In this document: piece by piece, positions 1,634-20,918 of the stretch
How positions within the stretch are numbered: position 1 is the stretch's first letter
Layout of the letters: each line of letters opens with the position of its first letter
Assembly: GCA_003609755.1 (NCBI GenBank)
Contig: AP017991.1
Location: 1,257,501 to 1,321,500, forward strand
DNA length: 64,000 nt
Direction: 5' to 3'
Origin: Planktothrix agardhii NIES-204
GTDB lineage: Bacteria > Cyanobacteriota > Cyanobacteriia > Cyanobacteriales > Microcoleaceae
Program-made: the position numbers and the translations under genes
Notes under the pieces: generated by a model
Databases searched by the model: none
Seen by the model: the letters and a program-made list of their open reading frames with translations, nothing else
Told to the model about the DNA's origin: nothing

Positions 1634-2088
1634 GCTTTTTTTTGAGGTTTTTTTGTTTTTTTTTGAAATCCTTGTACCATAAGGGTTTGGGCTGTTTTGA
1701 GGTTGGGCAGATCTGAGAAATAAACTGAACGCACAACGAAATCCAGCAAAAATTTATTGGACATCGGGATGATACCCATGGCTCAGGGACGGGTTCCGCT
1801 GCTTCCACCTTTGAGAAATAAATCTGTTAGTGCCACTTGGACTCCCCCCCTTTAAACAGGACTGTTTCACTCTCCAAAATTGGGGAGTAACCATCTTCTG
1901 TCGTTTTTAATCTAGTAGTCAAGGAAGTTAGGACATCAACAAGAATGTCAAACCCGACAAGATTCAGACTTTCCTTTCAAAATCTTGACAACAAGACTGC
2001 TATATATACATCGTAGCTCCATCGGTTCTGAGTTAGCAAGGGAGGATCTCACGCTATTTCCCCATGGGTTCAAAGCCAGAGTCAACCC
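1634..2088. other. Intergenic region between rrn promoter and M16 gene
   Basis: No convincing gene. A 66-codon minus-strand frame over 1608-1808 is Lys-rich only because of poly-T tracts at 1637-1672 and overlaps the rrn promoter, so it is not annotated. A weak hairpin (ctcc...ggag) lies near 1875-1890. I see nothing else interpretable here. Confidence 0.5.
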
Positions 2089-3381: not shown

Positions 3382-3424
3382 AGTTCCTCTATTTTTCCTT
3401 CAAGGTCAGGGGGTGAGATCGGCA

Positions 3425-3473
3425 TGGGTAATGGGTAATGGGTAATGGGTAATGGGTAATGGGTAATGGGTAA
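3425..3473. repeat. Heptanucleotide tandem repeat (TGGGTAA x7)
   Basis: Seven perfect, uninterrupted copies of TGGGTAA occupy 49 bases, followed by a pyrimidine-rich stretch (ttgcccattgcctatcccc). Short tandemly repeated heptamers (STRR) are known from filamentous cyanobacteria. The array sits in the 190-base gap between mnmA and the M16 gene, just upstream of the latter's GTG start, so copy number may vary among strains. Confidence 0.95.
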
Positions 3474-3571
3474 TCCCTATTTCTTCCTATTGCCCATTGC
3501 CTATCCCCTATTCCCTGTTACTGCATTTTTTAACACAAATAAACCCCAATTTGTCATCGTTCAATTAAAAC

Positions 3572-4660: not shown

Positions 4661-4796
4661 AATTCCATTAGAATAACTTGCTAATCTTGATCAACTAACC
4701 TAACTTTAATCTTGACTGTTCTGCCAATTTTGATTAATCTGAACTGACTTACTTACCAATATCAAACGAACCCACTCAAAACGGGAGAACACCAAA

Positions 4797-5768
4797 ATGT
4801 CATTCCATTCCATTGTAATACAGAAAAAAACAAATCGCCTGACAAAATTGATCTGGAAAATACCTCTATTTTCTAGTCTGATGCTATTAGGGGGATATGG
4901 AGCCATAGTTTCCCCTGTTTTAGCTCAAGAACGCTATGGGGTTTATGTCAATGGCGAAAGTCCTTTTCTCCTAGAAGTCGTGCAGCAAATTCAGCCCGGA
5001 GCCATGATGCAACGATATGATAATCGTAACATTATTGATCTTGGTATTTATTTTAATCAAAGTGAAGCTCAAAAACTGATTGAAAATTTAAGAAGACAGG
5101 GAGTTCAAGGAGAAATTATTAACTTAAAATCTGGAGAAGATTTCAATAGTCCAGTCCAGGTTAATCCCATGGTGATTCCCCCTGACCAAACGGATATTAA
5201 AGTGATTAAAAGTTCGATTCCCACGGGTCAACTTCCGATTACAACAGACTTAGGATTATATCAAGTTTACGTCAGTCCGACTACAAATTCTTTAAGTGCA
5301 GTCCGCCAAATTTCTCCCAATGCTCGAACATCAACCTATCAAGGACAATTAATTATTCAAGCGGGCAGTTTTGTGAATCAATCTAATGCTGACCAACTTC
5401 GTCAAAAGTTATCCTTCGCGGGGATTTCTTCGACTATTATTAATAGTACCGCACAATTACAAGCATTTTTAGCTAGTATTCCCAATATCCCCCCGAATAC
5501 TTTGCCCGCATTTCCGGGTTCTGGTTTAGGATTAGGGAATACCGATAGCTATTTTATCTTAATTCCTAGCCAAAGAAACCAACTGGTTTCTTTGGCTGAA
5601 AATGTGGTAGCTTTGGGCATTCCTTCCCAAAGTATTCAGATGCAACAGGCGACTGCTAATCCGTTTGTTGCAGTTGGCCCTTTTGCCAATCAACAGTTAG
5701 CTAAAGAATGGGAAATTTACTTGCAAAGTTCGGGTTTATCTCGCGCTATTGTTTATTTTGGGAGATAA
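4797..5768 (+). CDS. Exported protein with three SPOR-like repeats
   Basis: 323 residues. A basic N-terminus followed by a hydrophobic segment (about 22-38, PLFSSLMLLGGYGAIV) and SPVLAQ suggests signal-peptide cleavage near residue 44. The mature part shows three similar units starting with YGVYV (about 47), YQVYV (about 155) and YFILI (about 253), each ending in an (I/V)xxGxFxNxxxAxxLxxxL pattern. This is how SPOR domains, which bind denuded peptidoglycan, look in cyanobacterial proteins. The likely site of action is the periplasm or cell wall. The exact role is unknown. A GGGAGA ribosome-binding site precedes the ATG. The call of SPOR is by pattern and not by search. Confidence 0.7.
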   Translation: MSFHSIVIQKKTNRLTKLIWKIPLFSSLMLLGGYGAIVSPVLAQERYGVYVNGESPFLLEVVQQIQPGAMMQRYDNRNIIDLGIYFNQSEAQKLIENLRRQGVQGEIINLKSGEDFNSPVQVNPMVIPPDQTDIKVIKSSIPTGQLPITTDLGLYQVYVSPTTNSLSAVRQISPNARTSTYQGQLIIQAGSFVNQSNADQLRQKLSFAGISSTIINSTAQLQAFLASIPNIPPNTLPAFPGSGLGLGNTDSYFILIPSQRNQLVSLAENVVALGIPSQSIQMQQATANPFVAVGPFANQQLAKEWEIYLQSSGLSRAIVYFGR

Positions 5769-5807
5769 TGTTCAATTAGATATATTGTAGGAAGAATATC
5801 TTTAACC

Positions 5808-5948
5808 CTATAGTGCTACGGATTACAGTTAGGACACTTCTAAATCCAACAAACTCATTCACTACTTACTTTTTCCTCCCCCCCTAGCCCTGCGTTTACG
5901 GGGTGTTTGGGGGGCTTTTCCCCTGTTCCCCAGTGCGTAGCGCTATAG
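5808..5948. mobile_element. MITE-like small repeat element, copy 1
   Basis: A 141-base non-coding element with imperfect terminal inverted repeats: left CTATAGTGCTACGGA, right TGCGTAGCGCTATAG (reverse complement CTATAGCGCTACGCA, two mismatches). The left-end flank ATTACAGTTAGGACACTT recurs at 56995 and 57892, and the interior contains CTGTTCCC tracts like those copies. No transposase is inside, so it would need one in trans. TA at both tips is compatible with a TA-targeting family, but this cannot be settled from one window. Confidence 0.6.
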
Positions 5949-5996
5949 AATTGGTAAGTACCTAAACAAAATTAATTACACATCCTCTACCCTGTT

Positions 5997-6043
5997 CCCT
6001 CCCCCCCTAGCCCCCCGTGCACGGGGGGTTTGGGGGGGCTGTT
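5997..6043. repeat. GC-rich palindromic repeat
   Basis: A perfect 18-base palindrome CCCCCCGTGCACGGGGGG (6011-6028) is nested in flanking C7TAG / TTTGGGGGGGCT arms. A degenerate sibling lies at 5877-5916 (agccctgcgtttacggggtgtttgggggg) inside the MITE-like element. Both sit between the convergent SPOR-like and glycosyltransferase genes, so transcripts of either strand would form a strong hairpin, possibly a bidirectional terminator. Confidence 0.8.
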
Positions 6044-6084
6044 CCGGTGTTCCCTCTCACAACTAGGTAATTTATTTTGTGCAA

Positions 6085-7764
6085 CTACTTATGAGTTATT
6101 AAAATCCAATCGGAAGTTTGATCAATTTTTTTAACCTTGTTTAAGTTTAATTTTCTCAGGGTATTTTCTTTTAATAGTAAGTAGGGTTGATCCAGGGTTT
6201 GCCATTTATTTTTTAGGGTGATATCATTAACCGCATGAATATGGCGATCGCTATAAAAATTCAACGATGGACGCCCAAAAGGATGACCCATATAAATTTC
6301 TTCTCCGGGGGGTGTTCCTTCCCTAATCATAGTCGCCACGGGTTTAACAGCAAAATCTTCATTCAATTCCCAAACCCAATAATTGGAAGTAAAAAATAAC
6401 AATAAAGATACATAGGTTCCCCAAAATAAAACTATCAAAAATTGTCGATCTTTTTGGCTAATTAAAACCGATACAAAGGACATTGTTAACATCAAAGTGC
6501 CCAAGGTAAATTGTAAATCTCTTTGAGCGATAAAATTACGATCAACCCAAGAAAGCATCCCGCCAAAATAACAATATCCAATGGCTGAAATGATCGCTAA
6601 TAGAATAAAAAATGGTAAGAGTTGATCGGGCGTTGGTTTAACAAAATGTTCATATTTGCCTCGCCCCACTTTCCCCAATTTCCATAACCCAATATCCCGA
6701 TCTCCTTCCTTCCAAACTTCCGCCAAATATCGCCCCACCCCCAAGGCTAAAACCGGATAAATTGGTAAAATATACCAGGGTAATTTAGTTGTCATTAATG
6801 AAATAGAAACAAAATAAATCCCCGTCCAAACTATAATTAATTTCGCCCAACTTAAATTCCGATTTTGCCAAGCTAATTTTAATCCCTGGGGCAAAAATAA
6901 GAGCCAAGGCCAGCCATATTTGAAAAGTTCCAATAAATAATACCAAATCGGCCCGGAATGGTTTTCAACCGGTTGCCAAACTCGTTGTAAAGATTGATTG
7001 ACTAAATTTCCTTGAATAAATCCCTGTCCATAATAAATCCATTGTGCCCCATACCAAAAACCCACAGGTACTAAACCAAACCCTAAACCCAACCACAGAT
7101 AGGGACTGGTTAACAAGCGAGGCGTATCCCAAAATAGGAAGAAAAAGGCGATCGCACCTAATAATAATCCTAAAAAAATTCCCTTAGTTAAACATAATAA
7201 ACCAAAGGCAATTCCCGACCCTAAAGCAAATCTTAAATCCCGTCGAGAACGCAACACACACCAAACTAAAACTAACCATAAAAATATCACTGTTCCATCT
7301 AACATCGCTAACCGTCCTTGACGGATAACAGGCATTAAAGTTAAATAAACTAAAGCTGAAAATAGAGCCGAAGTACGATGGCGAAATAGTTCCAAACCAA
7401 TACCATACAAAATAGGAACCGAAATGGCTGTTAATAGTGCACAAGGAAGTCGCGCCATCCATTCATTAACGCCGCCAATTTGATAGGCAAAAGCCATTAA
7501 CCAATGCACTAAAGGAGGCTTATTCAAATAGGGAATTCCATGTAAAGTTGGATGGAGCCAAGTTTGTTGTCCCCGCCCAATTTCCCGCGCCACTTGAGCC
7601 GCTAACCCCTCATCCCAATCTCGTAGGGGGACTCCACCTAGATTCAGTCCATAGAGGGTCAGCGCCGCTACCAATAAACCCAAAAACCATAATAAATCAA
7701 CCCAACGATCAACGGGACGCATTTGGCGCAAAGGACTATCTCCAGTAAAAATTTGACGCGACAT
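6085..7764 (-). CDS. PMT/ArnT-type membrane glycosyltransferase
   Basis: 559 residues with about ten to twelve hydrophobic helices, typical of GT39/GT83 enzymes that use polyprenyl-phosphate sugars. The first periplasmic loop carries the catalytic acidic motif RDWDEG (about residue 49), followed by YLNKPPLVHW, the hallmark of ArnT/PMT proteins. Further helices run from 125 to 460, and a soluble C-terminal segment of about 90 residues follows. It would transfer a sugar from a lipid-linked donor to a lipid, polysaccharide or protein at the periplasmic face. The acceptor cannot be deduced. It is divergent from prfB, with 88 bases between starts. Confidence 0.85.
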   Translation of the reverse strand: MSRQIFTGDSPLRQMRPVDRWVDLLWFLGLLVAALTLYGLNLGGVPLRDWDEGLAAQVAREIGRGQQTWLHPTLHGIPYLNKPPLVHWLMAFAYQIGGVNEWMARLPCALLTAISVPILYGIGLELFRHRTSALFSALVYLTLMPVIRQGRLAMLDGTVIFLWLVLVWCVLRSRRDLRFALGSGIAFGLLCLTKGIFLGLLLGAIAFFFLFWDTPRLLTSPYLWLGLGFGLVPVGFWYGAQWIYYGQGFIQGNLVNQSLQRVWQPVENHSGPIWYYLLELFKYGWPWLLFLPQGLKLAWQNRNLSWAKLIIVWTGIYFVSISLMTTKLPWYILPIYPVLALGVGRYLAEVWKEGDRDIGLWKLGKVGRGKYEHFVKPTPDQLLPFFILLAIISAIGYCYFGGMLSWVDRNFIAQRDLQFTLGTLMLTMSFVSVLISQKDRQFLIVLFWGTYVSLLLFFTSNYWVWELNEDFAVKPVATMIREGTPPGEEIYMGHPFGRPSLNFYSDRHIHAVNDITLKNKWQTLDQPYLLLKENTLRKLNLNKVKKIDQTSDWILITHK

Positions 7765-7781
7765 AGTTTAAATGTTGACAG

Positions 7782-7809
7782 TTGACTGTTCCCCAATTCC
7801 CGCTAAAAT
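7782..7809 (+). promoter_or_regulatory. Candidate prfB promoter
   Basis: TTGACT (7782-7787), a 16-base spacer and TAAAAT (7804-7809) lie 44 bases upstream of the prfB ATG. A second -35-like TTGACA starts seven bases earlier (7775). Support is from consensus match and position only. Confidence 0.4.
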
Positions 7810-7852
7810 TAAAAGTGTACCTTTTTGTGTTGAAAAACGGTTAGTGATTGCA

Positions 7853-8975
7853 ATGGATGTTTTAGAAATTAAACGGGAAATCGAACTGTTGTCTGAGCAC
7901 CTGGGTAAAACCCAGGACTATCTTTGACCTGCCTGCACTTCAAGCCAAAATTCAAGATTTAGAGCAAGTTTGTGCCCAACCCGACTTTTGGGATGAGCAA
8001 AAAACCGCACAACAAACCCTTCAACAGTTGAATGATCTTAAATCAATTGTGCAGCAGCAGGAACACTGGCGGCAAGCGATTGAAGATACAAAGGCTATCT
8101 TGGAATTATTGGAGATAGAAACCGATGACTCCCTTTTAGAAGAAGCAACAGCTACGATTTTGCGACTCAATCGAGAATTTGATCAATGGGAATTGCAACA
8201 ACTTCTCTCAGGGATTTATGATCAACATGGTGCTATTTTAACCATTAATGCCGGAGCGGGTGGAACTGATGCTCAAGACTGGGCAGAAATGCTGTTACGG
8301 ATGTATACTCGTTGGGGAGAAGCTCAGGGATATAAAGTACATTTAACCGAAATTTCTGAAGGGGATGAAGCAGGAATTAAATCGGTTTCTTTGGAAATTG
8401 ACGGTCGTTATGCCTACGGTTATTTAAAAGGAGAAAAAGGAACCCATCGTTTAGTTAGAATTTCTCCTTTTAATGCCAATGATAAGCGACAAACCAGTTT
8501 TGCTGGGGTGGAAATTATGCCAATTTTGGATAATTCTATTCAGTTGGATATTCCTGATAAAGACCTAGAAATTACCACCACTCGGTCGGGAGGAAAAGGG
8601 GGACAAAACGTTAACAAAGTTGAAACAGCCGTGCGTATTGTTCACCTACCAACGGGACTCGCCGTGCGTTGTACCCAAGAACGTTCTCAGTTGCAAAATA
8701 AAGAAAAAGCCCTAGCTTTATTGAAGGCAAAATTATTAATTATTGCCCAAGAACAACGGGCAATAGCGATCGCTGAAATTCGCGGGGATTTAGTCGAAGC
8801 AGCTTGGGGAAATCAAATCAGAAACTATGTATTTCATCCCTATCAAATGGTGAAGGATTTACGCACTAATGAAGAAACAACGGCAATTCAGGATGTGATG
8901 GATGGAAAATTAGATGCTTTCATTCAAGCCTATTTACGTCAGGAAAATCAAATCCTAGAACCCCAAACTGCCTAA
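7853..8975 (+). CDS. prfB: Peptide chain release factor 2 with +1 programmed frameshift
   Basis: RF2 reads UGA and UAA stops and triggers peptide release on the ribosome. The true start is ATG at 7853; the first 24 codons (through CTT at 7922-7924) end at an in-frame TGA (7925-7927), and the remaining 350 codons continue in the +1 frame from GAC at 7926 to the stop at 8975. The joined protein of 374 residues has the family's usual length. The GGQ loop that catalyses hydrolysis is seen in [10 protein letters not shown] (DNA about 8590-8620). A start at the internal ATG 8028 would delete the N-terminal helical domain. Expression is autoregulated: low RF2 slows UGA reading and favours the shift. 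Confidence 0.96.
7914..7928 (+). promoter_or_regulatory. prfB +1 frameshift site (CTT TGA C)
   Basis: The slippery heptamer CTTTGAC at 7922-7928 matches the classical RF2 recoding site. AGGA at 7914-7917 lies four bases upstream of CTT and can act as the stimulatory Shine-Dalgarno-like element, though it is shorter than the AGGGGG of Escherichia coli. The two reading frames join exactly here. Confidence 0.93.
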
Positions 8976-9027
8976 TTACCAATTTATCAACCGTAGGGGC
9001 GGGGTTTTCCTGCCCACCCTAATTAAT

Positions 9028-10305
9028 ATGACAACATTAAACAACTGTTACGCTCTCATTGCTGGAATTGCCAATTATCAAAAGATCAAACCTTTACCGT
9101 CAACGGTTCTCAATGATGCTAAGGATATTTATAGTTTACTCACAGAACCTTCATTCTGTGGTTATTTGATCGAAAATGTGGAATTATTATTAGATGAAAA
9201 AGCCACAAAATCAGCCTTAACTCAAGCATTAACTGATTTATCTACTAAAACCAACGCCGATTCAACGGTATTAATTTATTATTCGGGACATGGCGGCAGA
9301 ATTGAATTCGGGCCCACTGCGGGAGAATATTTATTACCCGTTGATACGGTTTATACGTCCGGTGCATCCTTAGTAGAAACCGCTATTTCAGGATCTCAAT
9401 TTACAGAGGTATTAAGAGCAATTCCAGCCCGAAAATTAGTTGTAATTTTTGATTGTTGTCACGCTGGGGGAATTGGTCAACCTAAAGATCCAACCATACC
9501 CGAAATTAAAGGGGGATTACCCGATAATTATTATGATCAATTAGTGCAAGGAAAAGGTCGGGTAATTTTCGCATCCTCTCGTAATACTGAACAATCCTAT
9601 GTAACTTCCGGCTCAACTAATAGCGTTTTTACTAAACATTTAATTGCCGGGTTAAAAGGAGGAATTACTAGCAATGATGGATTAATTAGAATATTTGATA
9701 TTTTTGAATATTTACAACCGAAAGTTACCGCCGACCAACCCAACCAACATCCGATTTTTAAATCCGATATTGAGGAAAATTTTCCCCTCACCCTATATTT
9801 AGGCGGACAAAAAGGAGTGAGTCCGATTTCTCCTTCTGTACAGGGGGATTCTGTGCAGGAAGAATTCCGCTATGATGTTTATATTAGTTATGTGGATGAA
9901 GAACCCGATTCGACCTGGGTTTGGGATTTCTTAGTACCGAAATTAGAAGCAGAAAACCTAAAAGTTGCGGTTTCAGGAGATGTGGATTTATTAGGGGTCG
10001 CACGGGTTGTGAATATAGAACGGGGTGTTAAGTTTTCTAAACGAACCCTTGTCATTTTATCGAATTTATACTTAGATAATAATATGGCAGAATTTGAGAA
10101 TACTCTGGCTCAAAACTTAGGAATTGAGGAAGGGAAAGCTCGTATAGTTTGTGTTGAGAAAGAGGCTGTTGATGCTGCTAAACTTCCTCAACGTTTTAAG
10201 TTAGGGGCTATGTCTAAACTCAACCATGATCGACGGGCTGAACGGGAGTTCCAAAAGTTAATTGAACAGTTAAAACAACCCCTTCCTCCTCTTAACCCAT
10301 TGTGA
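9028..10305 (+). CDS. Caspase-like (C14) protease fused to C-terminal TIR domain
   Basis: 425 residues in two domains. Residues 5-250 are a metacaspase/caspase-like C14 peptidase: the histidine is in YYSGHGG (His88) and the nucleophile in IFDCCHAGG (Cys144). Such orthocaspases usually cleave after Arg or Lys and are rich in multicellular cyanobacteria. Residues 280-415 are a TIR domain opening with YDVYISYVDEE; within SNLYLDNNMAEFEN, Glu357 sits four residues after the position of the conserved aromatic, where TIR NADases keep their catalytic Glu. It has no signal peptide, so it is probably cytosolic. It lies 163 bases upstream of, and in the same direction as, a TIR-STAND-WD40 gene. I infer a signalling link through TIR-TIR contact. 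Whether this TIR cleaves NAD or only binds is open. Confidence 0.88.
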   Translation: MTTLNNCYALIAGIANYQKIKPLPSTVLNDAKDIYSLLTEPSFCGYLIENVELLLDEKATKSALTQALTDLSTKTNADSTVLIYYSGHGGRIEFGPTAGEYLLPVDTVYTSGASLVETAISGSQFTEVLRAIPARKLVVIFDCCHAGGIGQPKDPTIPEIKGGLPDNYYDQLVQGKGRVIFASSRNTEQSYVTSGSTNSVFTKHLIAGLKGGITSNDGLIRIFDIFEYLQPKVTADQPNQHPIFKSDIEENFPLTLYLGGQKGVSPISPSVQGDSVQEEFRYDVYISYVDEEPDSTWVWDFLVPKLEAENLKVAVSGDVDLLGVARVVNIERGVKFSKRTLVILSNLYLDNNMAEFENTLAQNLGIEEGKARIVCVEKEAVDAAKLPQRFKLGAMSKLNHDRRAEREFQKLIEQLKQPLPPLNPL

Positions 10306-10468
10306 CCGAAAATCAGAGAGCGCAAGCCCCTAAACTCCATTGATGATCTCACATTAACAATCATAGAAAATTGTACGGGAATTTCCTCTTATAGCACTGT
10401 AATAGAAAACAGGTGAATTGATCGCATTGAATACCGTTTTCACCTCAAAATAAACCAGAGGGATTGCT

Positions 10469-13400
10469 ATGTCAAAACAATATTCTGTATTTGTTTCCTA
10501 CGCCGATGAAGATGGTGCGTGGGTGGAAGGTTATTTATTAAATGCTTTAGAAGAAGCGGGGTTAACCTGTCATTCCGAGGCGATGTTTCGGTTAGGTGTT
10601 CCTCGATTAATTGAATTTGAAAGTACAGTTAAAAATAGTGAACGAACCTTATTAGTTATTTCCCCAGCCTATTTAGCCGATAATTTTGTAGAATTTGCTA
10701 ATTTACTGTTCCAATCCTACGGAGTTGATGCTACCTTATGGCCAGTTGTTCCGATTATTTTGAATCCCGTTCAAGAATTACCCATGCGCTTAGAAATGTT
10801 AGGGTGTTTGGATGCGACGGATGCGACAAAACAACAGGAAGTTATTCAACGAATTTGTGAGGATTTTAAAAAACCGGTTCCAACTTCAGTTAAAATTCCT
10901 GATTGTCCCTATCCGGGGATGGTTCCCTTTAAACAAGAAGATAGCGATCGCTTTTTTGGACGACAACGAGAAGTTAATGATTTAATTCAACACTTACGAT
11001 TATATCCCTTTTTAGCGGTAATTGGAGCATCGGGAAGCGGTAAATCTTCGTTAGTTTTTGCTGGGTTAATTCCCCAACTGCAAAAAACTCATTTATTAGG
11101 AAAAGAACCCTGGCAAATCTATTCCATGCGTCCGGGTACAACACCGATAACCACATTAACTACAACATTAGGCTGTGATCTTAGCTCTGCTGAAGCTATA
11201 ACTACAAAGTTTAAGTTATCACAAAAATCTCTATTAGTAATTGATCAATTTGAAGAAATTTTTACCCTATCTCCTCAAGACATAACTCCATTTCAAGAAA
11301 TATTATTAAATCTGTATAAACAGCCTAATTTTTATGTCGTTTTAACAGTTAGAGCCGACTTTTATCCGCAATTAATGGAATCAACTTGTTTCTGGCGAGA
11401 AATTAAAGCCCATCGCTATGAAGTGTTACCTTTAGATCAAATGGGACTGCAAGAAGCTATTCTTAAACCTGCGGAACAGGCGAGAGTTTTTATAGAAGGC
11501 ACATTATTAGAACGGTTAATTACAACAGCAGCAAAAGAACCTGGGGTTTTACCTTTATTACAAGAAACATTAGTCTTATTATGGGAAAAAATAGAACGAC
11601 GATATTTACCGTTAAGAGCTTATGAAGCGTTGGTATTATCCTATTATAATGCAGTCTCTACTACTAATAATAAATTAATCGGAATTCAAGTAGCGCTCGC
11701 GCAAAGGGCAGATGCTGCGATCGCTGATTTAACCGACGAACAACAAATCATTGCCCGTCGGGTATTTTTACGTTTAATTCAGTTTGGAGAAGGGCGGGCA
11801 GATACCCGGCGACAAGAATCTGTAGAAGCCTTAAAAGCCAGAGGAGATAACGATCAAATCTTTGAAGAAACCTTACGTTATTTAGCAGATCGTCGCTTAT
11901 TAACCTTAAGTGGAAAAGAGGATAAAACCCGAAAAGTGGATATTTCTCACGAAATTTTAATTAGTAGTTGGCCCCAGTTACAAGATTGGATTATTCAACG
12001 TCGAGAAGCCGAACAAACCCGTCGCCGACTGATAGCAAAAGTACAAGAGTGGGCGAGATTAGGGAAAGGTAAAGGGGGGTTATTAGATGAATTTGAGATC
12101 GTTGAAGCTCAACATTGGTTAGAGAGTTGCGATGCAGCAGAATTAGGGAGTGATGATCAATTAGTAGTGTTAGTTGAATTAAGTAAAACTCATATAGAAA
12201 CTGAAAAACAAAGAGAAATAGAAGCTCAAAAACGGGAGTTAAAACTAAGCCAAAAAAATTTATGGATTACTAGAATTGCCTTGACGGTGATTACAGGAGT
12301 TGCTACTGTTGCTATTGTAGTTGCTGTAATTGCAAAACATCAATGGCAAGAAGCAGATAAAGGTCAAATTATTGCTAAAATTGAAACAGCCAATGCTCGG
12401 TTTACGGAAAATCCTGATACCTTTGATTCATTAGTCGCAGCATTAGAAGCGGGAGAACTTTTCAAGAAATCGATTTTTAATCGGAATAACCCTCAACTGA
12501 AAGCTGATGTTTTAACTGTATTAGCTCAAGGAATCAATTGGGTTAAAGAACAAAATCGTTGGCTGGGACATACGGATGCAATTCAAACCGTTAGCTTTAG
12601 CCCTGATGGTGAAATCTTGGCAACGGGAGGTTATGACAAGATCGTTAAACTTTGGAATCAAGATGGAAGTCTTTTACAAGAATTATCAGGACATCAGGAT
12701 GCTATCAGAAATATTAGCTTTAGTTCCGATGGAAAAATGATGGCAACTGCTAGTTTAGATGGAACTGTCAGACTTTGGGAAAAACAAGGGGAAGATTGGA
12801 AAAAAATTCCTCAAGATCTATTATTGAGACATGATTCACCCTGCCATAGTATTAGTTTTAGTGGCAAGGAAGACTTAATTGCAGCAGGTTTGGAAAATGG
12901 AAAAATTAAACTGTGGACAAAAGACGGTAAACCAATTACTACTTTAACAGGGCATCAAGGAATAGTTCGTAGCCTTAGTTTTAGCCCTGATGGTCAAACT
13001 CTCGCGTCTGGAAGTGCTGATCAAACTATCATTTTATGGACAAGAAAAAATATTAACCAATGGTCTGTCAAAACCAAATTAAAACATAACCATGAAGTAT
13101 ATAGTGTTTCATTTAGCCCTGATGGTCAAACCTTAGCGAGTGCTAGTCTTGACAAAACGGTAAGGCTCTGGAATTTAGATGGGACTCCAAAATTTGATGC
13201 TTTAAAGGGTCACAAGAGTGGAGTTTTAAGTGTTTCATTTAGTCCTGACGGTAAAATTTTGGCTTCAGCAAGTGAAGATAATATCATTAAAACTTGGACT
13301 CTCCAAGGTCAGGAAATCAGCAGTGTTATAGCGCATCAAAATCGAATTAATGCTATTGATTTCAAGCCAAGATCAGAAAATCAAATTTTAGCCTCAGTTA

Positions 13401-14455
13401 GTGATGATAACATGGTTAAGATTTGGCAGTTTCGCAATTCTAAGATCAAACAAATTAAAAATTTTAATCATCTTGTCGCAAATGTTAGCTTTAGTCCTGT
13501 AGATGAACAACTACTAGCAACTTCCAATGGAGATGATGTAGAAGTCAAGTTGTGGAACCAAGATGGGGAATTGCAAAATTCTTTAGATACTCATAAGGGT
13601 ATAGTTAAGGATATTAATTTTACTGCTGATGGGAATATATTGGGAACAGCCAGTAAAGATAAACAAGCATTACTTTGGAATTTTAAAGCTGGTAAAATAG
13701 AACATACTCTACGAGGTCATTCGGAAGAAGTTAGAAGTATTGATTTTAGTTTTGATAACCAATGGATTGCTACAACAAGTTATGATGGACAAATCAAACT
13801 TTGGAATCAGGATAATGGAAAAGAAATACAGGAACTTAATGAACATAATGGGCGGGTTTATAATGTAAGATTTAGTCATAAAGCACTTTTAATGGCAACA
13901 GCCAGTGAAGATAAAACCGTCAGAATTTGGACTCTAAAAACTAATCATCAGCCCTTAAAAATTAGCGATAAAAATCCGTTAATCATCGAGAATGAAAGCT
14001 CAGTTTATAGTGTCGCTTTTAGCCCTAATGATCAACTTATCGCTATAGGCGGTCAAAATAAAATGGTTGATCTGTGGGATATAAAGGGTAAACTTATTAA
14101 AAAATTTGAAGGACATGAATCTCCTATTTGGGGAGTGGTTTTTAATCCTAATCCTAAAAATAAAATTATTGCTTCTGCTAGTGATGATAAGACCGTCAGA
14201 CTTTGGGATTGGGATAGGAGGACTCCTATTGTTACTCTCAAGGGCCATCAGGATGAAGTCAATGATGTTAGTTTTAGTAAGAGTGGTCGTATCCTAGCTT
14301 CCGCTAGTTCAGACAAAACAGTGATTCTTTGGGATGTGGAGCAAGTTACCGATTTGGATAAGCTTTTAGAAGGAGGATGCAGTTGGCTTAAAAATTATTT
14401 TACTTTTAATGATCCAAACAAAAATAAACAACTTTGTCCTGCTCCTAAAGGCTAA
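10469..14455 (+). CDS. TIR-STAND NTPase-transmembrane-WD40 protein (NLR-like)
   Basis: 1328 residues. Residues 1-137: TIR domain (YSVFVSYADED). Residues 147-560: STAND-type P-loop NTPase with the PYPGMVPF lead-in common to this group, Walker A GASGSGKSS (186-194) and Walker B LLVIDQFEE (255-263), then winged-helix-like arms. About 560-595: charged coiled coil. About 598-622: one hydrophobic, probably transmembrane, helix. About 695-1315: a WD40 array of roughly fourteen blades (repeated FSPDG...LASxSxDxTVxLW), consistent with one or two propellers. By analogy with Apaf-1/NLR proteins, the WD40 part senses a ligand, STAND oligomerises on ATP binding, and TIR signals. At the TIR position where NADases have Glu there is Ala77. 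The ATG is preceded by AGAGGGA. Ligand and role are unknown; defence or cell-death control is inference. Confidence 0.88.
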   Translation: MSKQYSVFVSYADEDGAWVEGYLLNALEEAGLTCHSEAMFRLGVPRLIEFESTVKNSERTLLVISPAYLADNFVEFANLLFQSYGVDATLWPVVPIILNPVQELPMRLEMLGCLDATDATKQQEVIQRICEDFKKPVPTSVKIPDCPYPGMVPFKQEDSDRFFGRQREVNDLIQHLRLYPFLAVIGASGSGKSSLVFAGLIPQLQKTHLLGKEPWQIYSMRPGTTPITTLTTTLGCDLSSAEAITTKFKLSQKSLLVIDQFEEIFTLSPQDITPFQEILLNLYKQPNFYVVLTVRADFYPQLMESTCFWREIKAHRYEVLPLDQMGLQEAILKPAEQARVFIEGTLLERLITTAAKEPGVLPLLQETLVLLWEKIERRYLPLRAYEALVLSYYNAVSTTNNKLIGIQVALAQRADAAIADLTDEQQIIARRVFLRLIQFGEGRADTRRQESVEALKARGDNDQIFEETLRYLADRRLLTLSGKEDKTRKVDISHEILISSWPQLQDWIIQRREAEQTRRRLIAKVQEWARLGKGKGGLLDEFEIVEAQHWLESCDAAELGSDDQLVVLVELSKTHIETEKQREIEAQKRELKLSQKNLWITRIALTVITGVATVAIVVAVIAKHQWQEADKGQIIAKIETANARFTENPDTFDSLVAALEAGELFKKSIFNRNNPQLKADVLTVLAQGINWVKEQNRWLGHTDAIQTVSFSPDGEILATGGYDKIVKLWNQDGSLLQELSGHQDAIRNISFSSDGKMMATASLDGTVRLWEKQGEDWKKIPQDLLLRHDSPCHSISFSGKEDLIAAGLENGKIKLWTKDGKPITTLTGHQGIVRSLSFSPDGQTLASGSADQTIILWTRKNINQWSVKTKLKHNHEVYSVSFSPDGQTLASASLDKTVRLWNLDGTPKFDALKGHKSGVLSVSFSPDGKILASASEDNIIKTWTLQGQEISSVIAHQNRINAIDFKPRSENQILASVSDDNMVKIWQFRNSKIKQIKNFNHLVANVSFSPVDEQLLATSNGDDVEVKLWNQDGELQNSLDTHKGIVKDINFTADGNILGTASKDKQALLWNFKAGKIEHTLRGHSEEVRSIDFSFDNQWIATTSYDGQIKLWNQDNGKEIQELNEHNGRVYNVRFSHKALLMATASEDKTVRIWTLKTNHQPLKISDKNPLIIENESSVYSVAFSPNDQLIAIGGQNKMVDLWDIKGKLIKKFEGHESPIWGVVFNPNPKNKIIASASDDKTVRLWDWDRRTPIVTLKGHQDEVNDVSFSKSGRILASASSDKTVILWDVEQVTDLDKLLEGGCSWLKNYFTFNDPNKNKQLCPAPKG

Positions 14456-14519
14456 TAAAATGTATTTTTCACTACTCTGGCTTAGAAGATCCTAAAGAAA
14501 AAATTAATTTCCTATAAAT

Positions 14520-14563
14520 GGTGTTATTTCAACATACTATTAAAAATAGCACCTTAAATTTTT
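14520..14563 (+). terminator. Hairpin between STAND and papain-like genes
   Basis: GGTGTTATTT (14520-14529) pairs with AAATAGCACC (14544-14553) over ten positions with one G-U wobble, followed by TTAAATTTTT. It looks like an intrinsic terminator or attenuator between the two genes, so the papain-like gene may be transcribed partly on its own. Confidence 0.5.
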
Positions 14564-14585
14564 AGAGAAAACAAGGATTTGAATT

Positions 14586-17462
14586 ATGCCCTTAAACCAG
14601 AATTCATTAGGCTGGTTACCCGACTATCCTGACCAGAGAGATCTGAAACTAAGTGATCTGAACAAAAATATCATCAAAGATCAGTCTCAGAATTCAGAAT
14701 ATACAGCATCACAAATTCTTGAATTAGCCGAATTAATTAAAAAAATAGTCTCCAACACTGATCAAAAGGGAAAAACATCTTTAGATGAAAGGCTGGAAAG
14801 TATAATTCAAAAAAACCGGGATGAAATTTGTTTTTTAACAGTACAAAAAGAAAATAAATATTTTTTATACAGAGGAATTAAGAATGCAAAAGTTAAAGAA
14901 ATTCAAGGCAAATTGTTTTCTATTTTGGACAAGTGTTGTTCATATTTAGACCCAGAGTCAAGTACAGAGATTAAAAAGGATTTAGAAAAGTTAAAATTAG
15001 AAAATGGTTATTTTGGAGAAGTTACACATAAACTCATAATTAAATTCAAAGCTATATGGGAGATTCCTAACAAAGATAGCATTTTAGATGTAGATGATGA
15101 GACTAAAGCCAACCAAGAAGAAGAATTTTATCAATACGATTCTAAGGTCACTATTTATAAAGTTTTAAACACAATTCATAATAGAATTAAGAATAAAAAA
15201 GAAATTGAAAATTATGAAGAAATTTGTAGAAATTGTCAAGAAGAAAAAGATACTAACGATTTTCCAGAAATCAAGATAGGAGATTATGGGAAGATAGTAA
15301 ATCTTATTAAAAATAAATTAGAAGAACTAGGATATGGGATATTCTTTTCAGAAGATGAAAAATGTAGCTCCTTTTTTGGCTTTAAGACAGATTTAATTGT
15401 TGAATTTTTTCAAGGGATTAATGGTTTACAAGCTGATGGTATAGTTGGGCCTTCTACTTGGCGAAAGTTATGCCAAAAAAATAATAAGGTAATAAATATA
15501 TCACAAGTAAACGATATCAAGAATCTTAAAGCCTTTTCAATCATTTATATACAAAAAAGACTCAGGAATGATTTTAGAAAAGAAGAGATTAAAATCAACG
15601 GAATCTTCGATGAGGTTACTGAAAAAGTCATCGATGAAATCACTGTAAGTAAATCTGAGGAACAATCACAACTTTTAACTATTCAAGAATTTTTAAGACA
15701 GATTATTGAGAAGGCTGAAGATGAAAAACAGTGTTTTCGAGAGCAATTATTTACTTTTCTTGAATATAAGAATCAAGATTTTATCCAAAATAAAGAGAAA
15801 AAAAATCCTATTTTATTGAGTATTCAAAACCCTATTTCTAAAAACATCAAAAAAGATTTTCAAGATAAAATTCGACTCAAACTTGAAAATCATCAAGAAG
15901 CTCAAACTTTAGAAATAAAAAATCAATCGAGTAATGATCCGCTTCCTAACGATATTATTGCTATTATTGATCCATTGATCCAGTTGGTAATCAAACAAAT
16001 TTCGGAAATTGGCATTCATGGTCAATTAAATTATGAACAAGCGATACCCCACGTTATAGAGTTAATAAATAGTTTTTTGGCTGAACCACTTTTAGATGAA
16101 GATCCAGAAAATCACCCTCAACAACCCCAATTTTTAGATAATTATGATATGAATACAAAATTTTTTCTTGAATTTCTGCGAGGAAGAAAAGAACGTGCGG
16201 GTGAGATCGATGTGATGTTAATTTATAAATCTCTGTCTACAATAGAAAGAAAAAGGTTAAATTATTCAATTTTCATAACTCTTGATAAAATTGAATGGAT
16301 GATTGATAAGATAGAAGCCAAAACTTCAGAAGGAGAGAAGAATAAGTGGGATAATTTAAAAGCAAAAATAAAAGACATTAAAACCAAAGCTCTATCTGAT
16401 TTCTCAAATGGAAAAAATAAAAATTCAAGAGATAGATCAAATCAAGATGAAAATCAGTTTGATTTTTTTCCCAAGAAAAATCAAACTACAATTCTGAAAA
16501 AATGTCCTGATGGAGAGCCTAATCAATTATCAGATCAAGATCATCAATTATCAGTTCCATTACTTACTGAATTTAAAAACAGTATCGACAAGTATGAACA
16601 ATCTTACACATCCGTTTATTTCTGTTTACCTGAGTTTGTTGATTTAAGCTATTGGTGTTCTCCCGTTAGAAATCAAGAACCTTTAAGCTCATGTACAGCC
16701 TGTTCCGCCATTGCTTTAGTCGAATATTTTCAGAACAAAATTTATGGCGAATATACCAATGCTTCAGTCCTTTTTTTGTATAAAGTAACGCGAAAACTCA
16801 TGCACCGTCAAGGAGATGTGGGTGCATCCATTCGGGAAACAATGAAAGCAATGGTCTTATTTGGAATTCCACCGGAAGAATATTGGCCTTATGAACCAAG
16901 TAAAATTGATGAAGAACCGAGTGGTTTTTGTTACTCCTATGGTCAGATTTATCAGACAATTAAATATTTCAGGCTCGACACTCCGGGTCTTCCTGCAACC
17001 CATTTATTGGCTCAAATTAAAATGACTTTAGTGGCTGGTCTTCCTTCTATGTTTGGGTTAACGATTTACAGTTCCATTTATGAAGAGGCTAACTACAAAA
17101 AAGGTTATATTCCCATACCTCACTCAAAAGATAATGTGCAAGGGGGTCATGCTGTTGTAGCAGTTGGCTATGATGATACTAAAATTATTGGAACCTCAGT
17201 CGGTGCGCTGCTGATCAGAAATTCTTGGGGGACTAATTGGGGTGAACAGGGTTATGGTTGGTTACCTTATGATTATATTCTTAAGGGATTAACATCAGAT
17301 TGGTGGTCTTTGATAAAAGCAGAGTGGTTTGAAACTAAGAATTTTGGTTTGGGGCTTGATGATTGGAAGCATAATGATACCAGCAGCCCTGGTGATGAGA
17401 ACAGAGGAAACAGTTCGTCAACAACACCACCACCAACACCACCACCAAAACCAACACGTTAG
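14586..17462 (+). CDS. Papain-like (C1) cysteine protease with PG-binding-like segments
   Basis: 958 residues. The opening LGWLPDYPDQRD is typical of bacterial C1 peptidases, but the catalytic domain itself is C-terminal (about 680-925): SSCTACSA with Cys703 as nucleophile (Gln697 six residues before, the oxyanion Gln), His855 in GGHAVVAVGYDD, and Asn879 in RNSWGTNWGEQGYG. The region between is charged and largely helical. It contains a peptidoglycan_binding_1-like stretch (about 275-300, FFQGINGLQADGIVGPSTW) and a second degenerate one (about 318-350, INGIFDEVTEKVID). The tail is a Pro/Thr-rich linker. No signal peptide is visible. The split arrangement, with a 650-residue insertion between N-terminal signature and catalytic core, is unusual. 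It follows the caspase-TIR and TIR-STAND genes in the same direction, so it may be a further effector. The function is not known. Confidence 0.8.
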   Translation: MPLNQNSLGWLPDYPDQRDLKLSDLNKNIIKDQSQNSEYTASQILELAELIKKIVSNTDQKGKTSLDERLESIIQKNRDEICFLTVQKENKYFLYRGIKNAKVKEIQGKLFSILDKCCSYLDPESSTEIKKDLEKLKLENGYFGEVTHKLIIKFKAIWEIPNKDSILDVDDETKANQEEEFYQYDSKVTIYKVLNTIHNRIKNKKEIENYEEICRNCQEEKDTNDFPEIKIGDYGKIVNLIKNKLEELGYGIFFSEDEKCSSFFGFKTDLIVEFFQGINGLQADGIVGPSTWRKLCQKNNKVINISQVNDIKNLKAFSIIYIQKRLRNDFRKEEIKINGIFDEVTEKVIDEITVSKSEEQSQLLTIQEFLRQIIEKAEDEKQCFREQLFTFLEYKNQDFIQNKEKKNPILLSIQNPISKNIKKDFQDKIRLKLENHQEAQTLEIKNQSSNDPLPNDIIAIIDPLIQLVIKQISEIGIHGQLNYEQAIPHVIELINSFLAEPLLDEDPENHPQQPQFLDNYDMNTKFFLEFLRGRKERAGEIDVMLIYKSLSTIERKRLNYSIFITLDKIEWMIDKIEAKTSEGEKNKWDNLKAKIKDIKTKALSDFSNGKNKNSRDRSNQDENQFDFFPKKNQTTILKKCPDGEPNQLSDQDHQLSVPLLTEFKNSIDKYEQSYTSVYFCLPEFVDLSYWCSPVRNQEPLSSCTACSAIALVEYFQNKIYGEYTNASVLFLYKVTRKLMHRQGDVGASIRETMKAMVLFGIPPEEYWPYEPSKIDEEPSGFCYSYGQIYQTIKYFRLDTPGLPATHLLAQIKMTLVAGLPSMFGLTIYSSIYEEANYKKGYIPIPHSKDNVQGGHAVVAVGYDDTKIIGTSVGALLIRNSWGTNWGEQGYGWLPYDYILKGLTSDWWSLIKAEWFETKNFGLGLDDWKHNDTSSPGDENRGNSSSTTPPPTPPPKPTR

Positions 17463-17521
17463 CTCTGTCTTCATAATATTTAGATTACTGGGTTGTTAGT
17501 TTTTTTATCAGCTTGATTTAA

Positions 17522-18937
17522 TTACTTCAACCCCGGTAAATTCCAACTTTGCACAACTTTTGTAATCGCATCACGGGTGGCTTCTGCACCGAAACCCCAA
17601 GCCATTAATGCAAAATAATCCTTCCAGGGATTAGCGCCAAAGGTGGGATTATCAATGTATAATTGACTGAATCCGGTTCCGGCTAAAAAGATAACCGCGA
17701 TCGCATAACTTGTCCAAGTAAATAACTTTAATCGCACTCCCGCTTTGGTTGTTTCCGGTGTTGAAGTTGTAGAACGATTCGTCACTGGAGGCGGAGACAT
17801 AACCCCAGTAAACCCAAAAAGACTTTTAGAAATTACCCCTCTTGGTGAAGATTCATTTCCAATATCTTGCGCTTTTAACGTTAAATCATTTAACTCTGTT
17901 GTTAACGCTTTAAATTGTTTCGGATTAGCGAGGGATTCAGTGGCAATTTTTGCTTCTAATTGTTCAAATTCAGGAAGGATAGTAGTCCGTTTTTCTAAAG
18001 GAATTTCGGCAATTAACGCTTTTAAATCTTGCTTTTGATTCTCCAAAACAGACTGATTCATCTGTTGAGCAATTTTCTCTAACCGTTCTCGAAATTGTTC
18101 CGGGGTTTCTAGTTCTGGTGCATCGTTAATTGTCGCTTCTAAATCTCGCAATATCGCTTTTACTTCTAAATCATTGGGATTTTTATCTTCTAACTGATGT
18201 TTGAGTTGTTGACAATAATCAAATTGTTGTAACCAATCATTTCGTCCTTTTATCCAGCGTTTCCAAATGGTTTCTGCTTGTTCTAAAATGGCGATCGCTT
18301 GCTCCCATTTTTCCGTTTGCAACTCCATTTTAACTTCGATCAAACACCCCTCAATATATTGTTTAAATGCCGTGATTTTTACAAATTCTATATCCTCCTG
18401 CATCTGAGTTTGTAATTGTCCTATCCGCACCAAAACTTCATCCCGAGGTCGTCCTTGGGCGCGATATACAGAGACTAAAATTCCTAATCCTGTTCCTAAA
18501 AATAATATTAACAGAGGAGGTAACCACCAATCTTTAATTTGTAAAGTAATAGGAAGGGTTAATTCTCCTCCGGTATAGGTTAAACGTAAATTGCCGAGAT
18601 ATTCTCCACTACTGGGAGCTTGACTTAAATTAAATTCAACTGGAACTATAATTTGATTTGATCTAATTGTTTGCCAATTTGACTTATTAGAAATAATACC
18701 CGATGCGGGAAATATTGTGATTCCATCCCGACTATTCAAATCTAATGCTAAAACCTGTAAATCCTGAATCGGACTATTAGTTTGGACAAAAATTTGACGA
18801 GATGGTTGTTTTTCTATGCGGTTTCCTGCAATCGTGATTTGAGTGGGTTGAATAGTGGTTTCAACTTGAGCATTCGCCACCGTTGGAGATAGGAAACAAA
18901 GAACAGGTAGGATGATTCCGGCTAAATATTTTTTCAT
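17522..18937 (-). CDS. Membrane protein: signal peptide, Ig-like ectodomain, coiled coil
   Basis: 471 residues that I do not recognise as a named family. A signal peptide (residues 1-23, ending VANAQ) precedes a beta-rich extracytoplasmic part (25-130) that resembles an Ig-like or NEW3-type fold. A transmembrane helix follows (about 138-158, WWLPPLLILFLGTGLGILV), then a long charged, helical, probably coiled-coil cytoplasmic part (165-360). Two further hydrophobic segments lie near 400-425 and 435-460. It is convergent with the papain-like protease gene (59 bases between stops), so a shared operon is excluded, although both are accessory in character. A mechanosensing or scaffold role would be speculation. 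Confidence 0.7.
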   Translation of the reverse strand: MKKYLAGIILPVLCFLSPTVANAQVETTIQPTQITIAGNRIEKQPSRQIFVQTNSPIQDLQVLALDLNSRDGITIFPASGIISNKSNWQTIRSNQIIVPVEFNLSQAPSSGEYLGNLRLTYTGGELTLPITLQIKDWWLPPLLILFLGTGLGILVSVYRAQGRPRDEVLVRIGQLQTQMQEDIEFVKITAFKQYIEGCLIEVKMELQTEKWEQAIAILEQAETIWKRWIKGRNDWLQQFDYCQQLKHQLEDKNPNDLEVKAILRDLEATINDAPELETPEQFRERLEKIAQQMNQSVLENQKQDLKALIAEIPLEKRTTILPEFEQLEAKIATESLANPKQFKALTTELNDLTLKAQDIGNESSPRGVISKSLFGFTGVMSPPPVTNRSTTSTPETTKAGVRLKLFTWTSYAIAVIFLAGTGFSQLYIDNPTFGANPWKDYFALMAWGFGAEATRDAITKVVQSWNLPGLK

Positions 18938-19685: not shown

Positions 19686-20918
19686 ATGTTACCTGTAGAA
19701 CAAGTAGAATCAATAATATTAAGTTTAGTCCAACCTTTGGATGCTGAAATTGATCAAGAAAAGGTGGCAATAACTCAAGTTTCTGGTCGAATTTTGACAA
19801 AATCTGTAGTGAGTTCATTGGATTTTCCCCATTGGGATAATTCGGCAATGGATGGATATGCAGTCCGATATCAAGATGTTGAGGATGCTTCCATAGACCA
19901 TCCTAAATTATTAGAAATTATTGAAGAAATCCCGGCTGGATCTACTCCTAAATCTACAATTAAAATGGGACAAGCTGCCAGAATTTTTACAGGTTCTTGT
20001 ATTCCAAATGGTGCGGATATTATTGTAATTCAGGAAGATACAAAACGGGAGGGAAATCAGGTTAAAATTTTATCGTCTCCCACCAAACCCCAGGCTTTTA
20101 TTCGACATCAGGGCTCGTATTACAAAGCAGGAGAACCCCTGCTTACTCCTGGCATTCCTTTGGATGCTGCGGAGATTGCGGTGTTAGCAGCGGCACAATG
20201 TACCCAGGTTCCGGTTTATCGACGGTTGCGGGTGGCGTTATTATCAACGGGGGATGAATTAGTCACGGCTGATACCCCTTTAAAACGAGGACAATTAGTA
20301 GACTCTAATCAGTATGCGTTATTTACGGTGGTCAGGAATTTAGGGGCAGAAGTGATCGAATTAGGGATAATTCCTGATCGACCGGAGGTATTAAAAAAAG
20401 CTATTTCTCAAGCGATAGAAACAGCCGATATTGTGATCTCAACCGGGGGGGTTTCTGTTGGGGATTATGATTATGTTGAGGAAATTTTAACGGAATTAGG
20501 CGGAACTATTCATATCCAATCGGTGGCAATTAAACCGGGAAAACCTTTAACAGTAGCCAAATTCCCGAATTGTTTATATTTTGGTTTACCCGGAAATCCT
20601 GTTTCTACTTTAGTAACTTTCTGGCGTTTTGTCCAACCTGCGATTAAAAAACAATCGGGGTTATTATCTCAGTTTTGGGGGCCAGAATTTGTGAAGGCGC
20701 GATCGCGTCAAGAGTTAAAAGGAGGAGGAAAACGGGAAATTTATGTATGGGGTCAATTATGTTTAATTGATGGGGAATATGAGTTTCAATTAGCCCCCGG
20801 AAGTCAAATTTCTGGTAATTTAATTAATTTGGCACAAACAACGGGTTTAGCAGTTTTACCGATTGGTCAATCTCAAATTAATGCGGGGGATACTGTTAAG
20901 GTATTGAAAATTCGTTAA
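19686..20918 (+). CDS. moeA: Molybdopterin molybdenumtransferase MoeA
   Basis: MoeA inserts molybdate into adenylated molybdopterin in the last step of molybdenum cofactor synthesis, needed for example by nitrate reductase. The 410-residue protein shows the domain order expected: N-terminal DNSAMDGYAVR (about 58), the MoCF_biosynth core with LSTGDEL (about 184) and STGGVSVGDYD (about 258), and FGLPGNPVSTL (about 300). The C-terminal beta domain runs to the end. The start is ATG at 19686. No other moa/moe genes are nearby. Confidence 0.96.
   Translation: MLPVEQVESIILSLVQPLDAEIDQEKVAITQVSGRILTKSVVSSLDFPHWDNSAMDGYAVRYQDVEDASIDHPKLLEIIEEIPAGSTPKSTIKMGQAARIFTGSCIPNGADIIVIQEDTKREGNQVKILSSPTKPQAFIRHQGSYYKAGEPLLTPGIPLDAAEIAVLAAAQCTQVPVYRRLRVALLSTGDELVTADTPLKRGQLVDSNQYALFTVVRNLGAEVIELGIIPDRPEVLKKAISQAIETADIVISTGGVSVGDYDYVEEILTELGGTIHIQSVAIKPGKPLTVAKFPNCLYFGLPGNPVSTLVTFWRFVQPAIKKQSGLLSQFWGPEFVKARSRQELKGGGKREIYVWGQLCLIDGEYEFQLAPGSQISGNLINLAQTTGLAVLPIGQSQINAGDTVKVLKIR

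Follow-up and report, generated by a model that had tools for sequence, protein, structure and literature searches.

How could a bacterial caspase that carries a TIR domain be switched on by a neighbouring protein that carries one too? The question is raised by a locus of the filamentous cyanobacterium Planktothrix agardhii NIES-204, which lies in a 64,000-nucleotide stretch (the window; GenBank assembly GCA_003609755.1, contig AP017991.1, positions 1,257,501 to 1,321,500). A caspase-TIR gene is followed here by genes for a TIR-nSTAND1-WD40 protein and a long papain-like C1 protease (Table 1). An earlier note, made from the letters alone, had described these as three genes in a row on one strand. 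The row is present at the coordinates given there, with its catalytic motifs intact, and to it must be added a convergent fourth gene that the note overlooked. Comparison of the locus across genomes suggests that it is probably a two-component system, in which a STAND protein switches a protease and the TIR domains serve as plug and socket.

Pairing of caspase-TIR and TIR-STAND genes

We searched a phylum sample of 386 cyanobacterial genomes and an order sample of 354 genomes. A second scan took one genome per GTDB species and gave 18 loci, of which 16 were kept (L035-L049 and L051; no TIR was found in L050 and L052). The surveys overlap, apparently through the same assemblies (G544=L035, G529=L043, G505=L045, G452=L042, G561=L037, G360=L041 and G354=L051), so the order and per-species counts are not additive. 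In the order sample at most about 11 candidates were scored per genome, which makes absences less sure than presences. Many loci come from metagenome assemblies, and all counts are uncorrected for kinship.

A full-length caspase-TIR is found in four of the phylum genomes. The sensor-TIR profile matches six, including exactly these four, and the two genes are adjacent and co-directional in each of the four (hypergeometric probability of the co-occurrence 1.1e-9). In the order sample the caspase-TIR profile finds 21 protease-linked TIRs, which we term C-type, in 20 genomes spanning 13 genera and 7 families; one of them, in G530, stands without a protease domain. A second TIR, found by the search for the same subfamily, lies no more than 6 kb from every one of the 21. 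This partner is downstream on the same strand and 44-491 bases away in 17 cases, the exceptions being G561, G634 (opposite strand), G389 and G530. It is nSTAND1-linked in 19 of the 21, all but G561 and G634. Three further profile matches, one in G615 and two in G496, are unpaired TIRs of the second, sensor-linked (S) type. The per-species scan has a TIR-nSTAND1 gene in the fetched stretch of 13 of its 16 loci (L035, L036, L038-L046, L049 and L051). The full block recurs in a named relative, Planktothrix sp. PCC 11201 (L035), and the pair reaches both beyond the cyanobacteria, into an Anaerolineae genome (L038), and onto a Calothrix plasmid (L044). Distances between C14 domains correlate with those between nSTAND1 domains (r 0.65 over 13 loci, 0 of 5000 permutations as high), and distances between caspase TIRs less so (r 0.14 against nSTAND1, 662 of 5000 permutations as high); all such correlations mix shared ancestry with coupling.

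Some loci are more elaborate. In a Rivularia metagenome-assembled genome (L039, 2446-13819) the locus is nested, with AAA_35-NACHT and TIR-AAA_35 genes and a fourth-gene homologue between caspase-TIR and TIR-STAND. On the Calothrix plasmid (L044, 7814-18223) and in Brasilonema (L049, 1432-9625) the locus is extended: a C14 protein of 706 aa is encoded upstream, and a TPR protein, which in L044 also has PG_binding_1, separates caspase from TIR-STAND. In L049 the caspase is without a TIR and the STAND gene is split.

A constant TIR between exchangeable partners

The domain that precedes the C-type TIR is C14 in most loci, CHAT in G389, G634 and G612, and Trypsin_2 in G608 and G551. The CHAT protein of G389 retains its HFSGHG and NACYS motifs, and the caspase His/Cys dyad is kept in 23 of 24 family members checked. 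On the partner side, the C-terminus of the TIR-nSTAND1 protein consists of WD40 repeats, of an FGE-sulfatase domain (L038), or of neither (L043, L046 and G608 by Pfam, G551 by BLAST). The NTPase itself may be missing, as in the TIR-FGE protein of L037, the TIR-TPR protein of L047 and a 262-aa TIR protein in G634. A TIR that stays constant while the protease and the far end of its partner vary is the pattern expected of an adaptor.

The two kinds of TIR differ at the alignment column that we take to be the catalytic Glu of NADase TIRs, and in which TLR6 has the E of its WCHYE. Glu is present in 25 of 28 C-type TIRs (the other three have Ala, Asp and Gln) and in none of 26 nSTAND1-linked TIRs, where Ile, Thr, Ala, Val, Gly or Phe takes its place; five rows on each side belong to the window's genus. 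Among four partners without nSTAND1, those of L047 and G634 have Glu, and those of L037 and L039b have Ser.

Both types of TIR resemble animal signalling TIRs when compared with solved structures, a comparison to be read against a PDB rich in animal TIRs. TLR1/2/6/15 chains are the best PDB matches for both profiles, which score much lower on the bacterial AbTIR, TcpB and Cat1. The C-type profile matches TLR6 at 71 bits and AbTIR at 27 bits, and the S-type profile matches a TLR or MyD88 TIR best, at 60 bits at the top; the range for AbTIR over the two profiles is 25-27 bits. Two control TIRs behave differently: for that of G325 the top matches are bacterial (7uxr 59, AbTIR 55 and best TLR 38 bits), and for that of G376 the top match is Cat1 (33 bits). 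A third control, a TIR-TPR protein with a weak NB-ARC match in G170 (L075, 7274-10225), is also TLR-like (62 bits, AbTIR 28). We built a tree of 65 TIRs, leaving out L104 and L107, whose length differed from match plus flanks. C- and S-type rows, together with the TIRs of L037 and L039b, form a single group with support 95/94; 30 further cyanobacterial TIRs, mostly the strongest TIR_2 matches of 80 genomes, fall outside it, and the C-type itself is not one clade. Their shared TLR-like affinity and this grouping suggest that the C- and S-type TIRs are a single subfamily, with some members on the protease and others on the sensor. The constant pairing, the loss of Glu on the sensor side and the TLR-like matches together suggest that the most likely role of the TIR is that of an adaptor which couples the two proteins. 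An N-terminal TIR on a bacterial STAND protein is listed in published work on EAD-coupled systems as an NAD+-processing effector (PMC7159879, PMC8195603, PMC10907252). The comparative evidence presented here points, for one TIR subfamily on STAND proteins, to a Glu-less adaptor acting in trans with a TIR-tagged protease.

The C1 protease travels with the WD40 repeats

The refuting condition set by the earlier note, co-occurrence no greater than chance, separates its three genes. Caspase-TIR and TIR-STAND co-occur beyond chance, and by genome content the C1 protease has no clear tie to caspase-TIR: it is found in two of the four caspase-TIR genomes against 38 of 386 overall (P 0.05, kinship uncorrected). 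The C1 gene adjoins the pair in the window, G157, L035 (=G544), G547 and, as an interrupted copy, G570. In the loci examined from other genera no C1 gene lay beside the pair, and two shorter C1 relatives that were looked at (G237 and G097) had no such neighbours. The three genes were therefore rejected as one conserved set, as C1 stands next to the pair in the window's genus only.

The WD40 repeats and the C1 protease are also where the genus diverges. Compared with L035 or G157, the window shows 96-97% identity in the caspase domain and 92% in nSTAND1, against 53-54% for the WD40 repeats; in the C1 protein the N-terminal parts are 37-56% and the catalytic part 81-85% identical. The rate of non-synonymous change (dN) lies below that of synonymous change (dS) in these comparisons, which therefore indicate divergence or exchange and do not prove positive selection. 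The pattern is reversed in G570 (L164). Here only 2 mismatches separate it from the window over 12,565-17,518 (about 4.95 kb), an interval that spans WD40 and C1. Identity is 85-93% in 0.5-kb windows before it (8.0-12.5 kb); past 17.5 kb it drops first to 96% and next to 90%. In G547 and L035/G544 no part of the locus is less similar to the window than this interval. The WD40 repeats and C1 thus travel together as one cassette, set within conserved machinery, and the comparison with G570 indicates a recent exchange of this cassette between genomes of the genus. The G570 copy of C1 (L164 4263-7139) is interrupted though otherwise nearly identical to the window's.

The link between C1 proteases and WD40 sensors recurs elsewhere. 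In G338 the gene immediately downstream of an nSTAND1-WD40 gene encodes a long C1 protease, and in G376 such a protease, spread over two open frames, immediately follows a TIR-WD40 gene. It is thus WD40 sensors, and not the caspase, that the C1 protease accompanies. Since it goes with the WD40 part and lies outside the core pair, its role as a second effector, as the earlier note had it, becomes one option among several. The cassette may serve as a natural experiment on sensor recognition and on the matching of a second protease to it.

Another segment also differs in similarity along its length: at window positions 10001-10500, compared with L163 (G547), the caspase's TIR is 97% and the caspase domain 93% identical, perhaps a second, smaller exchange.

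The fourth gene and the block as a whole

Homologues of the fourth gene are found in seven of the 386 genomes, at eight places. A caspase is adjacent or in the same block at six of these (G000, G157, G382, G320, G167 and G060), and those in G382 and G320 are bDLD1-caspases. Of the remaining two, G360:C7 has the homologue following a WD40 end at the start of its contig; since the last residues of this WD40 are similar to those of the window's sensor, it may continue the TIR-STAND gene that is cut at the end of C109. The other, G360:C358, is on a 4.7-kb contig on which no caspase was found. The gene is also present at loci L035, L039, L042, G466, G547 and G570.

The encoded protein has a predicted layout of signal peptide, periplasmic beta-sandwich, transmembrane segment, cytosolic helical region, linker (364-397) and terminal helices. 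Conservation is highest in the C-terminal hairpin, which is nearly invariant among 11 aligned sequences. The structural model was built from 4 sequences (pLDDT 63.6, pTM 0.41) and can serve at most for its periplasmic and cytosolic regions; the linker and terminal helices are of low confidence and the topology is inferred. Against the PDB the model finds generic beta-sandwich or Ig-like folds only, with TM-scores of at most 0.2 over the query, and no match names a function.

As a family (window, L085, L087, L088, L089, L090 and L161) the fourth gene is rare, and its neighbouring caspases carry a TIR, a bDLD1 or a weak EAD10 match. At L089 (G167, 1707-17933) several genes with similar N-terminal stretches surround the caspase and the fourth-gene homologue; in the one scanned, at 10893, Pfam finds EAD10.

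The four genes are present or absent as a block. In a genome of the same species (G255) everything between a point shortly behind the caspase start codon and one shortly past the start of the fourth gene is missing, and the genes on either side are retained: an RF2-like gene (8028-8975) and another at 19686-20918. The short match that persists at the caspase start suggests loss of the block in G255, although gain in the window's strain may also explain the difference. Another member of the genus, G262, showed none of the four.

A putative TIR-coupled mechanism and its alternatives

Activated STAND proteins oligomerise, proximity switches caspases on, and TLR and MyD88 TIRs signal by assembly. 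In the logic of apoptosomes and inflammasomes, a protease is recruited to an oligomeric sensor. We infer for this locus an oligomerisation step, a TIR-TIR contact, a direction of signalling, cleavage of a membrane protein and an anti-phage role. The TIR-nSTAND1-WD40 protein would be held at the membrane, with its WD40 repeats on the outer side if aa 603-621 spans it. When the repeats meet their trigger, the NTPase would oligomerise and present a cluster of TIRs without the catalytic Glu. This cluster would recruit and crowd caspase-TIR through TIR-TIR contacts, and the crowding would activate the caspase, a part played by CARD or Death domains in the apoptosome. The activated caspase would then cleave cell proteins. 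The membrane protein of the fourth gene is the favoured candidate for a substrate or anchor, and its low-confidence linker would join the cytosolic region to the conserved hydrophobic hairpin. The C1 protease, matched to its WD40 sensor, could process the trigger or act as a second protease. The earlier note had already cast the STAND protein as sensor and TIR-TIR contact as the route to the caspase, and both proposals gain support from the pairing of all 21 C-type TIRs, the swapping of the protease with the TIR kept, and the Glu-less sensor TIR. In its fullest form the reading is tentative, and we would not favour it over its negation: the TIR would be a non-enzymatic, TLR/MyD88-like general plug by which interchangeable proteases of caspase, CHAT or trypsin-like type connect to a STAND switch anchored in the membrane, the WD40 sensor and its matched C1 protease would be traded as one specificity cassette between strains, and the caspase would act on an executioner membrane protein. 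If true, the principle of Toll and MyD88 (TIR-TIR assembly) and that of the apoptosome (caspase recruitment to a STAND oligomer) would be joined in one bacterial two-gene system, small enough for rebuilding in a laboratory strain.

Several observations weigh against coupling through the TIRs. TLR TIRs also have Glu at the scored column, so this residue discriminates poorly, and since C-type TIRs keep it, caspase-TIR may have NADase activity. As a single sequence the caspase TIR matches TLR-family chains only, and the best of these at just 28.8 bits, while Pfam TIR_2 outscores the TIR model on it (33.9 against 24.3 bits). The pairing has gaps: a caspase without TIR lies beside the TIR-STAND gene in L046 and L049, the caspase-TIR of L048 showed no partner in the roughly 10 kb around it, and the partner TIR protein is without nSTAND1 in L047, L037/G561 and G634. 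In G615 a caspase that lacks both catalytic residues (L157 7897-9126) still adjoins a TIR-STAND-WD40 gene. Distances of caspase-TIR and STAND-TIR are weakly correlated (r 0.33 over 11 loci, 49 of 5000 permutations as high). A single-chain TIR-TIR model, made from a shallow alignment, speaks neither for nor against the contact at pTM 0.34 and pLDDT 50.

A regulatory or programmed-cell-death circuit for stress or ageing, rather than defence, is an unlikely account, if one with precedent, as roles of cyanobacterial orthocaspases in homeostasis, differentiation and ageing, and possibly in cell death, are under discussion (PMC7517822), and no phage trigger is known for this locus. An ordinary circuit would sit poorly with patchy presence that extends to absence within the species, with a divergent sensor beside conserved machinery, with the recent exchange of the sensor cassette, and with replacement of the sensor by FGE-sulfatase, the fold of putative antigen sensors diversified by diversity-generating retroelements (PMC10907252). 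These four features fit a conflict system better, none of them as proof. We regard Thoeris-like chemistry as improbable; here the TIR would make an NAD+-derived signal that switches on the caspase, or caspase-TIR would itself be an NADase effector. The Glu of most C-type TIRs would serve such chemistry, and type IV Thoeris does pair a TIR NADase with a caspase-like protease (PMC12847820). The natural signal maker would be the sensor TIR, however, and this lacks Glu in all 26 nSTAND1-linked copies; both TIR profiles also favour TLR TIRs by a wide margin over AbTIR, TcpB and Cat1, and C- and S-type TIRs form one group, as expected of a split adaptor.

Common TIR, STAND and caspase genes could also be neighbours by inherited linkage alone, without working together. 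Multi-TIR genomes do exist in the order (32 matches in G396), and 23 of 27 caspase matches in the 386-genome search stop short of the query's TIR part. Yet a partner TIR is close to every C-type TIR across 13 genera and 7 families, the pair recurs in the Anaerolineae genome, and the pairing persists when the protease is swapped, which together leave mere linkage very improbable.

Relation to known systems

The closest relatives in logic are systems coupled by EAD domains, in which a domain common to a STAND protein and a neighbouring protease is proposed to make like-with-like contact (PMC7159879, PMC8195603). One such locus pairs EAD8-nSTAND1-FGE with trypsin (PMC10907252), and EAD-coupled conflict systems with FGE or repeat sensors are linked to multicellular bacteria (PMC7159879, PMC8195603, PMC10907252). 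Like these, the present family has the same domain on an nSTAND1 protein and on a nearby protease (21/21 paired, 19/21 nSTAND1-linked). It differs in that the shared domain is TIR, not EAD or Death-like, and lacks Glu on the sensor side. Pfam lists no EAD or bDLD for caspase-TIR, no EAD among the best 25 of 62 families for the STAND protein, and no Death or CARD domain among the families listed. The locus would thus follow EAD-type STAND/protease logic with a TIR in the adaptor place. In the open-licence PMC literature searched, caspase-TIR beside TIR-nSTAND1-WD40 is not described.

Type IV Thoeris likewise has a TIR and a caspase-like protease in one operon (PMC12847820). Here the caspase has a TIR of its own, the only extra domain that Pfam finds on it, and the sensor is an nSTAND1-WD40 protein with a Glu-less TIR; no stand-alone TIR with Glu was found beside the locus. 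Membership was rejected on the absence of Glu from the sensor TIR in 26 of 26 nSTAND1-linked copies. Antiviral STANDs (Avs, bNACHT) and NLRs share the order of N-terminal output, central STAND NTPase and C-terminal variable sensor (PMC10907252). The present protein differs in a putative adaptor output in trans, an NTPase of the nSTAND1 clade, a WD40 sensor and the hydrophobic segment.

The EACC1-caspase system is a two-gene pair of a caspase and a constant membrane protein (PMC7159879). The window likewise pairs a caspase with a membrane protein, and its caspase has a match below the cut-off to the NCBIfam model caspase_w_EACC1. The EACC1 partner is a single transmembrane helix with short extensions, whereas the fourth protein has a signal peptide, a periplasmic beta domain and a C-terminal hairpin, and its gene is convergent and downstream. 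This system was also rejected: the match reaches 108 bits against a cut-off of 140, and the membrane partner differs; EACC1 itself was not searched by model. The C14 domain with its His/Cys dyad makes the window's caspase an orthocaspase, and TIR_2 occurs in one of 473 cyanobacterial orthocaspases in a published survey (PMC8283722). The likeness to animal TLR-MyD88 scaffolds lies in the TIRs of both proteins, whose best PDB matches are TLR chains. The TIR sits directly on the protease here, unlike in TLR-MyD88 signalling or the apoptosome, and we do not claim homology of pathways.

Features of the locus

The window proteins have clear domain assignments. Pfam finds Peptidase_C14 (E 2.3e-21) and TIR_2 (E 5.1e-8) on caspase-TIR, nSTAND1 (E 4.6e-98) and 12 WD40 stretches on the STAND protein, and PG_binding_1 (E 5.2e-11) and Peptidase_C1 (E 1.4e-13) on the C1 protein. 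The N-terminal TIR of the STAND protein scores 49 bits, above the TIR_2 cut-off; among the matches listed for the whole genome, no TIR_2 match lies beyond these two genes. Walker A (GASGSGKSS) and Walker B are present in nSTAND1, the STAND protein has the tripartite STAND architecture, and the catalytic motifs of caspase, NTPase and C1 protease are all intact. A hydrophobic segment lies between the NTPase and the WD40 repeats of the STAND protein. A similar segment is found in 14 of 15 nSTAND1-linked proteins checked, and the gene of the fifteenth (L049) is split there.

Table 1. Coordinates of the locus features in the window (aa, amino acids).
Feature	Position	Strand	Details
Caspase-TIR gene	9028-10305	+	425 aa; Peptidase_C14 aa 8-252, dyad His88/Cys144; TIR aa 284-411, Glu357 kept
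C-type (protease-linked) TIR domain	9877-10260	+	C-terminal part of caspase-TIR
TIR-nSTAND1-TM-WD40 gene, putative sensor/switch	10469-14455	+	1328 aa
S-type (sensor-linked) TIR	10469-10882	+	About aa 1-138; Ala replaces catalytic Glu
nSTAND1 NTPase	10907-12067	+	aa 147-533; Walker A aa 186-194
Hydrophobic, probably membrane-spanning segment	12275-12331	+	aa 603-621, between NTPase and WD40
WD40 repeats, fast-diverging sensor region	12578-14383 (limits approximate)	+	
Papain-like C1 protease gene, long	14586-17462	+	958 aa; variable N-terminal region
C1 protease domains	PG_binding_1 aa 237-295; Peptidase_C1 aa 691-892	+	Gln697/Cys703/His855/Asn879
Exchangeable WD40 + C1 cassette	12565-17518	not assigned	Near-identity to G570
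Fourth gene, without Pfam family	17522-18937	-	471 aa; convergent, downstream of C1 gene
Conserved C-terminal hairpin of fourth gene	17525-17746	-	aa 398-471; motif FGAN.W.DY..L..GFGAEA.R

The intergenic gaps are 163 bases between caspase-TIR and STAND and 130 bases between STAND and C1. With PADLOC the locus matches a general caspase model and repeats, and the TIR is weakly matched by PDC-S66.

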